Positions 26,395-30,680 of a stretch of DNA of 64,000 bases are shown piece by piece. Under the pieces are notes generated by a model. It had not been told where the DNA came from. It did not search any database and saw nothing but the letters and a program-made list of their open reading frames with translations. The position numbers and the translations under genes are program-made. Position 1 is the stretch's first letter. Each line of letters opens with the position of its first letter. Where the stretch lies: the NCBI RefSeq assembly GCF_029714305.1, contig NZ_CP121647.1, forward strand, positions 62,001-126,000, read 5' to 3'. This DNA is from Bradyrhizobium sp. CB3481 (GTDB lineage: Bacteria > Pseudomonadota > Alphaproteobacteria > Rhizobiales > Xanthobacteraceae).

Positions 26395-27156
26395 ATGGTT
26401 CGGCCGGAGCAAACCACCCATTTTGGCTTCAGGGACGTGCCCCTGGGGGATAAACAGACGCTGGTGAACGACGTGTTTCACAGCGTGGCATCCCGCTACG
26501 ACCTGATGAACGATCTGATGTCGGCGGGCCTGCACAGGGTCTGGAAGGACATCATGATCACGGCGCTCAACCCGCCGAAAAACGATGCGCCGTTTGCGCT
26601 GCTCGACGTCGCCGGCGGCACCGGCGACATCGCCTTCCGTGCAGCCGAGGCCTCCGGCTTCGGCTTCCAGGCCACCGTCTGCGACATCAACAGCGACATG
26701 CTCGAGGTCGGCCGCAACCGCGCGCTGGCCCGGCATCTCGACCACCAGGTCTCCTTTGTCGAGGGTAACGCCGAGGCGCTCGCCTTTCCCGACCGCTCGT
26801 TCGACGCCTACACCATCGCGTTCGGCATTCGTAACGTGCCGCGGATCGATGCGGCGCTGGCCGAGGCCTATCGCGTGTTGCGGCCGGGCAGCCGCTTTCT
26901 CTGTCTGGAATTCTCCGCTGTCGACGTGCCCGGGCTGGATTGGCTGTACGACCAGTTCTCCTTCAAGGTGATCCCGCCGCTCGGCCGCGCCGTGACCGGC
27001 GACGCGGAATCCTATCAATATCTCGTCGAATCGATTCGGAAATTCCCCCGGCCGAACGTGTTTGCCGGGATGATCCAGAACGCCGGCTTTTCGCGGGTGA
27101 AGTGGCAGAGCCTGTCCGGCGGCATCGTCGCGTTGCATTCGGGCTGGCGTTTGTGA
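26395..27156 (+). CDS. ubiE: Ubiquinone/menaquinone C-methyltransferase UbiE
   Basis: SAM-dependent C-methylation of the benzoquinol ring in ubiquinone synthesis. The 253 residues contain the UbiE N-signature ([23 protein letters not shown]), SAM motif [17 protein letters not shown] and the second signature [20 protein letters not shown]. The stop overlaps the ubiB GTG start as GTGA, so the two are co-translated. Confidence 0.97.
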
Positions 27157-28727
27157 TCTCTGCGGCGACCCACATCGCGCGGCTGGTCCGCGCCGCTTAC
27201 GTGTTCGCGCGCGAGGGCGTGTTCGGCGTCGTCGACCCCAGCCTGGTCCCGCCACCCGGGCAACTCGCGCTACGCCTGGCGCGGCTGATCGAACGGCCCG
27301 GCGCCAAGGTCGGCCCACGCCTGTCGCGCGCGTTGACGCGCCTTGGCCCGGCCTACCTCAAGCTCGGGCAGTTTCTCGCCACCCGTCCGGACGTAGTCGG
27401 CGTCGCGATGGCGCGCGATCTGGAAAGCCTGCAGGACCGGCTGCCGCCGTTCTCGCATAGCGAAGCCGAGGCTGTGATCGCCGCCTCACTGGAACGCCCG
27501 CTCGCAAAGGCCTTTGTCAGCCTTGGACCTGCGGTCGCCGCGGCCTCGATCGCACAAGTGCATCGCGGCGAGGTCGAGCGCAACGGCGTCCACGTGCCGG
27601 TCGCCGTCAAGGTGCTCCGGCCAAATGTCTCCTCACGCTTTCGCCGCGACCTCTCCGATTTCTTCTTTGTCGCGCACAATGCCGAAGCGCATTCGGCCGA
27701 GGCACGGCGGCTGCGGCTGATCGAGGTCATCAACACCATGTCGCGCTCGGTCGCGATGGAGATGGACCTGCGGCTCGAGGCCGCCGCGCTGTCGGAGATG
27801 GCGGAGAACACGCGCGACGATCCGGACTTCCGCGTGCCCACCGTCGACTGGGACCGTACCACACATAACGTGCTGACGATGGAGTGGATCGACGGCATTG
27901 CGCTGAACGACCACGCCCGCCTTGCCGCGGCGCAGGTCGATCTGCCCGACCTCGGCCGCAAGGTGATCCAGAGTTTTCTGCGCCACGCGCTGCGCGACGG
28001 CTTCTTCCACGCCGACATGCATCCCGGCAATCTGTTTCTCGACGATGCCGGCCGGCTTGTCGCGGTCGATTTCGGCATCATGGGCCGGCTTGGGCTGAAG
28101 GAGCGGCGCTTCCTGGCCGAAATTCTGCTTGGCTTCATCACCCGCGATTATCGCCGCGTCGCCGAGGTGCATTTCGAGGCCGGTTATGTGCCGGGCCACC
28201 ATTCGGTGGAGAATTTCGCGCAAGCCATCCGCGCCATCGGCGAGCCGATCCACAACCGCACCGCCGAAGAAATCTCGATGGCGAAGCTGCTGACGCTGCT
28301 GCTCGAGGTCACCGGGCTGTTCGACATGCAGACCCGGCCTGAATTGATCCTGCTGCAAAAGACCATGGTGGTGGTCGAAGGCGTGGCGCGCGGCTTCGAC
28401 CCCAAGCTCGATATCTGGAAGGTCGCCGATCCCGTGGTGCGGGAATGGATCGAGCGCAATCTCGGCCCGCTCGGGCGGGTTCAGGGGGCGATGTCCGGCG
28501 CGGGCGAACTCGGCCGCGTGGCGGCGAGCCTGCCCGCGATCGCCTCACGGGCGGTTGCCGTGGTCGAGCACATGGAGAAGATGACCCGGGAGGGCATCAC
28601 GCTGTCGCCGGAGACGATTGCAGCCCTGGGCCGCGCCGAGGGCCGCAAGAGCCGCTGGCGAACGGTGGCGCTGTGGATCATCGCGGCGACCTTTATTGGA
28701 ATTTTGATCGCCATCCGCCAGCTATGA
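27153..28727 (+). CDS. ubiB: Ubiquinone biosynthesis accessory ATPase UbiB
   Basis: ABC1/ADCK-type atypical kinase needed for ubiquinone synthesis. The 524 residues show the KxGQ motif ([12 protein letters not shown]), the Ala-rich nucleotide loop (AAASIAQVH), [19 protein letters not shown] and two C-terminal transmembrane helices (the last [16 protein letters not shown]). GTG at 27153 overlapping the ubiE stop is the likely start, as the Rossmann-free N-terminus begins [12 protein letters not shown]; the frame is open further upstream inside ubiE. The start of the coaBC operator overlaps the ubiB stop. Confidence 0.95.
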
Positions 28728-28764
28728 TTGCAATGATAGCACGAGATTGCTATCATTGATAGCA
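28720..28764. promoter_or_regulatory. FitA-like operator upstream of coaBC
   Basis: Half-sites TGATAGCA at 28734-28741 and 28757-28764, TGCTATCA at 28748-28755, and a weaker AGCTATGA at 28720-28727. The central pair belongs to a perfect inverted repeat with 11-base arms, CAATGATAGCA (28731-28741) and TGCTATCATTG (28748-28758), around CGAGAT. It ends 21 bases before the coaBC ATG, just ahead of its GGAGGG site. From memory, TGCTATCA/TGATAGCA is the half-site bound by the gonococcal FitAB complex. The protein encoded downstream starts with a FitA-like domain, so autoregulation is the obvious reading. Confidence 0.7.
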
Positions 28765-28785
28765 TATCTTGCCGGAGGGCCCACC

Positions 28786-30225
28786 ATGGCCAGCCTGACC
28801 ATCCGAAAACTCGACGACGGCATCAAGTCCTACCTGCGGCTGCGCTCGGCCAAGAATGGCCGTTCGGTCGAGGAAGAGGTCCGGGTGATCCTGCGCGAAT
28901 ATTGCGAGGGCAGCCCGGCGCCGGCCGCACCGTTGGCCGCAGCGCCCGCTGCAGCAGACCGGGCAGGCGCCGAGCGCACGAACGTGGCCGGACAAGCCAG
29001 CGTCACCCTGATCATCGGCGGCGGCATTGCCGCTTTCAAATCGCTGGAGCTGATCCGGCGGCTGAAGGAGCGGCATGTCGATGTCCGCTGCGTGCTGACG
29101 AAGGCCGCACAGCAGTTCGTTACGCCGCTCTCCGCCAGCGCGCTGTCGCACGAACGCGTCTACACCGACCTGTTCGATCCCGGCAGCGAATTCGACGCCG
29201 GCCATATCCGGCTCGCGCGCGAATGCGATCTGATCGTGGTGGCGCCGGCGACCGCCGACCTGATGGCAAAGATGGCGAACGGCCATGCCGACGATCTCGC
29301 CAGCGCCATTCTCTTGGCGGCCGACCGGCCGATCCTGCTGGCGCCGGCGATGAACCCCTTGATGTGGAACAACGCCGCCACGCGCCGCAACGTGATGCAG
29401 CTCCGCCGCGACGGCGTCCACATGATCGGCCCCAATGCCGGCGAGATGGCCGAGTCCAACGAAGCCGGCGTCGGACGGATGTCCGAAGCGGTCGAAATCG
29501 CGGCCGCCGCCATCGACATTCTCCGCCCGCCGCGGCCGCGGCCGCTGCTGGGCAAGCGCGTGCTGATCACGGCTGGGCCAACCCATGAGGCGATCGACCC
29601 TGTGCGCTATATCGCCAACCGCTCCTCCGGCAAGCAGGGATTTGCCATCGCCGCCGCCGCGCAGGCCGCGGGCGCCGACGTAACGCTGGTCACCGGTCCC
29701 GTCGAGCTGCGCGATCCCACTGGCGTGACCGTCATCCGCGTCGAATCGGCGCGCGACATGCTGCACCGGGTCGAGGCCGCGCTGCCGGCCGACATCGCGG
29801 TCTTTGCCGCCGCGGTCGCCGATTGGCGCGTGGCCAATGAAGGCGAGCAGAAGCTGAAAAAGACCTCCGGCGGCACGCCGCAGCTCGCATTGGTGGAAAA
29901 CCCCGACATTTTAGCGACGATCTCGAAGCTGAAGGACAAGCGCCCGCCGCTGGTGATCGGCTTTGCCGCCGAGACCGAGCATCTGATCGACAACGCCAAG
30001 GCCAAGATCGCACGCAAGGGCTGCGACTGGATCGTCGCCAACGACGTCTCGCCCGCAACAGGCGTGATGGGCGGCGACCGCAACACCGTTCATTTGCTGA
30101 CGCGCGACGGCGAAGAGATCGGTGTTGATTCCTGGCCCGTGATGACCAAGGAACAAGTCGCAGCCGAACTGGTGGCGAAGATCGCCGAGGCTCTAGCGAA
30201 CAAGGCCGTGGAGAAGAATTCGTGA
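28786..30225 (+). CDS. coaBC: CoaBC with N-terminal FitA-like ribbon-helix-helix domain
   Basis: Couples cysteine to 4'-phosphopantothenate and decarboxylates the product on the way to coenzyme A. In the 479 residues, 1-40 ([20 protein letters not shown] and [12 protein letters not shown]) match a FitA-type antitoxin DNA-binding domain; 41-70 is an Ala/Pro linker; 71-250 is the CoaC flavoprotein with His140 (AGHIRLAR) and Asn190 ([10 protein letters not shown]); 255 onward is CoaB ([20 protein letters not shown]). The ACGDxGxGRM motif of E. coli CoaC reads [11 protein letters not shown], so its Cys is absent. The start has GGAGGG 6 bases upstream. dut overlaps by 4 bases. No PIN toxin gene is nearby. 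Confidence 0.94.
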
Positions 30226-30680
30226 GCGAAAGCGTGAAAGTCGAGGTCTGCCAACTGCCGCATGGCGAAGGCCTCGCCTTGCCGGCCTATCAGAGCGCTC
30301 ACGCCGCCGGGCTCGATCTGCTCGCCGCCGTTCCCGCTGATACGCCGCTGATCCTGTCGCCCGGAAAGCACGCGATGGTGCCGACCGGCCTCACGATCGC
30401 GCTGCCCAGGGGTTTTGAGGCGCAGGTGCGGCCGCGCTCCGGGCTTGCCGCCAAGCACGGCGTCACGGTGCTGAACTCGCCGGGCACGGTGGACGCCGAT
30501 TACCGCGGCGAGATCAACGTGCTCTTGATCAATCATGGCGATGCACCGTTCCCGATCCGGCGCGGCGAACGCATCGCGCAGATGGTGATCGCGCCGGTCG
30601 TGCAGGCAGAGCTCGTTCAGGTCGCATCGCTGTCATCGACGGCACGCGGCAGCGGCGGTTTTGGCTCGACCGGGCGCTGA
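30222..30680 (+). CDS. dut: dUTP diphosphatase
   Basis: Hydrolyses dUTP to dUMP, which keeps uracil out of DNA and feeds dTMP synthesis. The 152-residue trimeric-type enzyme has all five motifs: [43 protein letters not shown] and [13 protein letters not shown] at 30222 overlaps the coaBC stop (GTGA), the conserved coaBC-dut coupling. Confidence 0.97.

Follow-up and report, generated by a model that had tools for sequence, protein, structure and literature searches.

BirA and NadR are presented in passages of PMC8249747 as metabolic enzymes that double as transcription factors, and trifunctional PutA, a bifunctional flavoenzyme with an N-terminal ribbon-helix-helix (RHH) domain, is presented in passages of PMC5293562 and PMC8249747 as the autogenous repressor of its own regulon. 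We analyzed a stretch of 64,000 nucleotides from Bradyrhizobium sp. CB3481 (NZ_CP121647.1, positions 62,001 to 126,000 of the forward strand; hereafter the window, numbered from its first letter) in which CoaBC, an enzyme of coenzyme A (CoA) synthesis, bears at its N-terminus an RHH domain of the type found in FitA antitoxins, its gene being preceded by an array of FitA-like half-sites. As in PutA, a DNA-binding domain is attached to a metabolic enzyme and sites lie at the enzyme's own promoter, here judged by sequence only; unlike PutA, RHH-CoaBC belongs to CoA synthesis, has a FitA-like RHH domain, has relatives in which a toxin-antitoxin operon occupies the corresponding position, and has no known substrate switch.

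The FitAB toxin-antitoxin system of Neisseria has half-sites of the TGCTATCA/TGATAGCA type with N12 spacing; a literature search turned up no paper giving these sequences. RHH-CoaBC shares with the N. gonorrhoeae system (structures 2bsq and 2h1o) the RHH domain and, upstream of its gene, half-sites of this type, but these are spaced 1-6-1 rather than N12, and the window holds neither a toxin nor a toxin-binding antitoxin tail. RHH-CoaBC is, by membership, a CoaBC with a FitA-family domain and not a toxin-antitoxin system; it differs from ordinary CoaBC (TIGR00521) in its extra N-terminal DNA-binding domain and in the operator found here. A search of the open-access literature returned no paper joining CoaBC with ribbon-helix-helix domains or with Bradyrhizobium, or PPCDC with DNA-binding autoregulation; for CoaBC and antitoxins it returned two papers, both of unrelated title.

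We interpret this CoaBC as an antitoxin-derived, PutA-like "trigger enzyme" that represses its own coaBC-dut promoter, and we place the probability of this reading at roughly 0.8. The fusion, the operator and the fitAB origin are established at the level of sequence comparison, from which we infer DNA binding, repression and metabolite control by RHH-CoaBC.

The RHH domain of CoaBC

The fusion gene runs from 28786 to 30225 on the forward strand and encodes 479 amino acids from an ATG at 28786, with about 70 residues preceding the enzyme domains. The first-pass annotation of this DNA had read the N-terminus as the RHH domain of a FitA antitoxin, and a profile search bore this out: Pfam PF22513 (FitA-like_RHH) matched residues 2-38 (28789..28899) with a score of 54.4 bits (cut-off 27). 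Chains of the FitA structures 2h1o and 2bsq aligned weakly to residues 2-41 (E values of 0.034 and 0.037, respectively), and NCBIfam gave no antitoxin name to the CoaBC N-terminus. The CoaC flavoprotein domain (PF02441, 103.8 bits; residues 73-237, 29002..29496) and the CoaB ligase domain (PF04127, 239.6 bits; residues 255-438, 29548..30099) both exceeded their cut-offs, which places the protein within CoaBC, and the full protein matched TIGR00521 (bifunctional PPCDC/PPCS) at 398.8 bits (cut-off 219.7). The C-terminal toxin-binding tail of the antitoxin is not present; a variable, Ala/Pro-rich linker (28906..28998) takes its place, and across fused proteins 61-91 residues lie ahead of the enzyme core. 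An AlphaFold model derived from 29 fused sequences has helices at residues 11-24 and 28-40, the CoaC fold and, at residues 44-68, a linker of very low confidence (predicted local distance difference test, pLDDT, below 50) that is probably disordered.

The RHH codons look to be under selection. Over 630 genus pairs, codons with a single difference numbered 7255 synonymous versus 1557 non-synonymous, and differences at codon positions 1, 2 and 3 numbered 3529, 1442 and 9125. Residues T5 and R7 were invariant in 103/103 fused proteins; a valine on the DNA-binding strand of FitA contacts thymine according to passages of PMC3325190. In our reading, T5 and R7 would occupy DNA-contact positions of this kind. 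Translation from a downstream start was considered on account of in-frame TTG and GTG codons in the linker, but was set aside given the apparent selection on the RHH codons; a minor second start in the linker is possible.

Operator and predicted promoter upstream of coaBC

From the ubiB stop codon onward the DNA reads TGATTGCA-a-TGATAGCA-cgagat-TGCTATCA-t-TGATAGCA (28725-28764). Half-site 1, TGATTGCA (28725..28732, forward strand), fits the pattern TGMNNKCA, and its TGA is the ubiB stop codon; half-site 2 (28734..28741, forward) is an exact TGATAGCA; half-site 3 (28748..28755, reverse), reading TGCTATCA on the forward strand, is likewise exact and forms a perfect 8-1-8 palindrome with half-site 4, TGATAGCA at 28757..28764 (forward). 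The whole operator, at 28717..28772, is an imperfect inverted repeat whose 25-nt arms (28717-28741 and 28748-28772) stand 6 nt apart and are 80% complementary. The exact TGATAGCA has 3 copies in the whole 64 kb, all of them here (0.67 expected; at least 3 in 2 of 100 shuffles). The perfect 11-bp inverted repeat that the first-pass annotation had assigned to the central half-sites could be read directly at 28731-28741 and 28748-28758, and its repeated half-sites stood as well. Its spacing of 6, 6 and 1, by contrast, did not, since comparison gives 1-6-1; the earlier count seems to have taken AGCTATGA (28720-28727) as the first half-site, whereas the conserved site is TGATTGCA at 28725-28732.

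An alignment of coaBC upstream DNA from related genomes, a check that the first-pass annotation had suggested, shows such an array: the conserved unit is the 8-bp self-complementary TGMNNKCA, typically arranged as 8-1-8-N5/6-8-1-8, with starts of successive half-sites mostly 9, 13 or 14 bp apart. The letters TGATTGCA are the commonest before RHH-bearing loci (94 occurrences over 108 loci, a set that includes 5 with a separate fitA). A sigma-70-like promoter, TTGCAA-17-TATCAT, is predicted inside the operator at 28728..28756 on the forward strand (1 found versus 0.1 expected in shuffles); its -35 element begins in half-site 1 and its -10 element in half-site 3. At four loci (L030, L048, L100 and L111) extra DNA, small-repeat-like by eye, stands between operator and start codon, so that the distance to the half-site pairs is 105 to 291 bp versus the usual ~60.

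Association of the operator with the domain

The 218 locus records classified came to 207 genomes after duplicate removal: 103 with the fusion, 11 with fitA and fitB, 1 with fitA and another PIN gene, 4 with fitB or a remnant, and 88 with none of these, a class from which five duplicate records had been dropped and which includes G304 and G441, with other N-terminal extensions. A strict half-site pair was found no more than 300 bp before the start in 94/103 fused genomes (36/36 in the genus sample) and before coaBC in 0/88 genomes lacking RHH or fitAB remnants; shuffles gave a mean of 0.08 of 103 and at most 2. At least two half-sites lay within 300 bp in 103/103 fused genomes (shuffles: mean 9.4 of 103, at most 19), and two in 3/88 of those without RHH or remnants. 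Neither of the two sequence patterns that the first-pass annotation had named as refuting its reading was borne out: no fused locus had fewer than two half-sites, and palindromes without the domain were seen in one sampled case, G419 (L072), lying within a decayed fitAB that has lost fitA and the first half of fitB and kept the operator.

Spread of the fusion

The loci were chosen from search listings, not at random. Within a same-genus sample of 98 genomes the fusion was read in one piece in 95 and in two contig pieces in 2; in the remaining one a contig end interrupts it. In the family sample of 149 genomes the match begins at residue 1 or 2 in at least 82, among which 7 belong to the same genus; this is an undercount because G109, matching from residue 45, is fused. 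The order sample adds at least 4 genomes of another family (f24) that match from residue 1, and f16 holds two further fused genomes; fused forms are known from three families. A search of 5.8 billion proteins with query residues 1-60 gave 1706 matches of CoaBC length, and among the matches listed (120 of 1706) all have PF22513 and one or both CoaBC domains. In a second collection, among the matches listed, 10/11 loci came from Bradyrhizobium and 1/11 from a Rhodopseudomonas metagenome-assembled genome, and 11/11 had an open frame of 471-487 amino acids starting with the RHH domain and TGMNNKCA half-sites upstream.

Origin from a fitAB operon

The proposal that an antitoxin lost its PIN toxin, joined the next gene and kept its operator agrees with what relatives carry, namely the order ubiB-fitA-fitB-coaBC with FitA-type half-sites; an internally deleted fitB, an operator beside a truncated PIN gene, and fused forms were all found. 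Twelve genomes, spread over the four families f1, f16, f24 and f35, have a separate fitA ahead of coaBC, and a further 4 have fitB or a remnant of it (both tallies after duplicate removal). Upstream of the separate fitA stands ubiB in 11/12 genomes, the exception being G485, and ubiB is also upstream in 9/9 loci of a set of relatives. In L194, L215 and L224 Pfam confirmed both domains, FitA and PIN; in L188 and L213 it confirmed one of them. The separate FitA of L194 received no antitoxin name from NCBIfam. Because fitB and coaBC apparently overlap, by ATGA in L194, L215, L142 and L141 and by GTGA in L223 and L224, coaBC would be the third gene of a fitAB operon there. Strict pairs of half-sites precede the separate fitA in 6/12 genomes.

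Forms with parts missing also occur. In L142, the fitB that comes after fitA has lost most of its central part, and L189 and L190 keep fitB together with an antitoxin gene that lacks its RHH part and retains its tail, with no TGMNNKCA half-sites between ubiB and coaBC. L141 is classed as "FitB only" on a stretch that begins inside fitA. Upstream of coaBC, L213 carries a pair of FitA-like genes and then a PIN gene of a different kind. By eye, the stretch "..EILALGRRPER.." in the linker of the fused CoaBC of G445 (L137) resembles "..EILEFGRRLQR.." in the tail of L213's second FitA.

For the fused state, a tree built from 83 CoaBC cores requires 6 changes, and well supported branches force at least 4 of these; 16 family loci retrieved only in part, all lacking RHH and fitAB, are not in this tree, and the counts could rise. 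Several independent fusions are likely, though not proved, because a count of changes cannot separate gains from losses.

Proposed mechanism and alternatives

The layout gives good support to direct autorepression, because the operator covers the predicted promoter and no other FitA-like RHH protein was found in the genome: PF22513 finds CoaBC alone at E ≤ 0.001, with 150/197 first-look candidates scored, so that another FitA acting as the true reader of these sites is unlikely. RHH domains of neighbouring subunits would pair as dimers, one dimer to each 8-bp TGMNNKCA half-site, and the four half-sites would fill co-operatively, blocking the covered promoter and keeping RNA polymerase off; more CoaBC protein would then mean less transcription of coaBC and dut. 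Passages of PMC7794376 describe mycobacterial CoaBC as a dodecamer of tetrahedral shape, CoaC trimers sitting at its vertices and CoaB dimers along its edges, and mycobacterial CoaB as inhibited by CoA thioesters. If the assembly were the same here, each particle would carry twelve RHH chains on flexible linkers, or six dimers, and four sites need fewer. Such a particle would point to direct repression of the gene by its own product and would leave scope for control by metabolites; that substrate or flavin does the tuning is speculation.

We advance more tentatively, at somewhat under even odds, a wider scenario in which a core biosynthetic gene was more than once taken into a toxin-antitoxin operon as third cistron, after which the toxin disappeared and the autoregulatory circuit went over to the enzyme; the dodecamer would then repress its own promoter multivalently, and the CoA pool would set enzyme synthesis. 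If autorepression by RHH-CoaBC is correct, root-nodule bacteria and their relatives have an enzyme of the CoA pathway that governs its own transcription directly and whose origin can be read, and this offers a way into how CoaBC levels are determined. One order holds together the separate fitAB operon, steps of its decay, the fusion itself and a competing fusion to another DNA-binding domain, and the fate of toxin-antitoxin modules after domestication becomes testable by ordinary biochemistry.

Several observations weigh against autorepression by RHH-CoaBC. The strict pair is not present at 9/103 fused loci, and the strict four-site array is found at only 37/103 (19/36 in the genus); before a separate fitA, 5/12 genomes have only one to three half-sites, of which one can be chance, and 1/12 has none. 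The sampled genomes are related, so the rows behind 94/103 versus 0/88 are not independent and a Fisher test on them overstates the association; a phylogenetic pair test could use only 5 pairs on supported branches (b, on average, 3.4 the same way versus 1.0 opposite; median p 0.375). Half-site 1 may be kept for other reasons, since it holds the -35 element and the ubiB stop; a TGMNNKCA half-site starts exactly at the ubiB stop codon in 35/59 fused loci, and part of its conservation may stem from this. Finally, the monomer model leaves the RHH strand unbuilt and is of modest confidence in that region, and because the strand has no partner there the claim of an RHH fold rests mainly on the profile match.

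Among other explanations, the one that fares best, though we consider it improbable, is that the RHH domain and the operator are relics of a harmless chance fusion and regulate nothing. The weak or incomplete operator of some lineages, such as the 9/103 loci lacking the strict pair, would fit this, but the invariance of T5 and R7 in all 103 proteins and the third-position bias of the RHH codons would not. Half-site letters turn over among relatives, yet the TG....CA pattern and the spacing persist; the fusion is read in 97/98 genus genomes, with the last cut by a contig end; and at least 4 changes of state on the tree likewise argue against a relic.

Slightly less probable still is that the palindromes are promoter elements or the sites of another regulator, with the RHH domain serving enzyme assembly. 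The -35 and -10 hexamers do lie within the array, a loose pattern chosen after looking, TTGCAN-16/17-TA...T, fits 33/36 genus loci, and half-site 1 often falls at the ubiB stop (35/59). Against this reading, the pair stands before coaBC in 0/88 genomes without RHH or remnants, half-sites of the same kind form strict pairs before a separate fitA in 6/12 genomes, and L189 and L190, in which the RHH part is lost and fitB kept, have none between ubiB and coaBC.

Least probable of all is that RHH-CoaBC regulates many targets across the genome: TGMNNKCA-N-TGMNNKCA occurs 15 times in the 8.04-Mb genome, 2 of them at the coaBC operator, and the 13 others exceed the 2 sites of a reversed control pattern, but 0/13 has a third half-site within 60 bp whereas coaBC has four half-sites, and their flanks are 55-69% G+C versus 50% at coaBC, the location of most of the 13 in long open reading frames being uninformative because the coaBC operator also lies in a long open frame.

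A second DNA-binding fusion

CoaBC of L073 (G304, f16) carries at its N-terminus an XRE-type helix-turn-helix domain (PF01381, 26.3 bits, cut-off 23), whose best match in the PDB is an XRE-family regulator (E = 0.00042). Residues 1-72 of this protein retrieved 11 proteins from the protein database, 11/11 with PF01381 and both CoaBC domains. Two copies of GGATATATCCA lie directly upstream of its coaBC (L073:1220-1310, 1303-2733), and one XRE-CoaBC fusion sits behind GGATATATCC repeats. The XRE domain was joined to CoaBC separately from the RHH domain, and two unrelated DNA-binding domains have thus come to stand at the same end of this enzyme. In the wider scenario above, the separate XRE fusion would point to recurrent selection for autogenous control of coaBC in these bacteria. 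BirA and NadR use DNA-binding folds other than RHH, and the XRE-CoaBC of L073 is closer to them than RHH-CoaBC is.

Another 70-residue N-terminal extension of CoaBC (L079:1489-2910, reverse strand) resembles a helix-turn-helix by eye and has short repeats upstream. It was considered as a second XRE-CoaBC type, tentatively, and returned no Pfam helix-turn-helix match and no convincing match in the PDB; the extension is common to 2 proteins, one being the query itself, and may represent a third type.

Neighbouring genes

The gene order in the window is ubiB - RHH-coaBC - dut, with no PIN toxin gene adjoining. Upstream, ubiB occupies 27129..28727 on the forward strand (its start is approximate), and a terminator-like stem-loop within its end, at 28669-28688 (0.2 expected in shuffles), is probably due to chance. 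Downstream, dut, which encodes dUTPase (30222..30680, forward), is probably co-transcribed with coaBC, because its GTG start overlaps the coaBC stop codon. A database protein of 623 amino acids, P0015, is listed as a single chain with RHH, CoaBC and dUTPase domains, which looks like a further fusion, of coaBC with dut.

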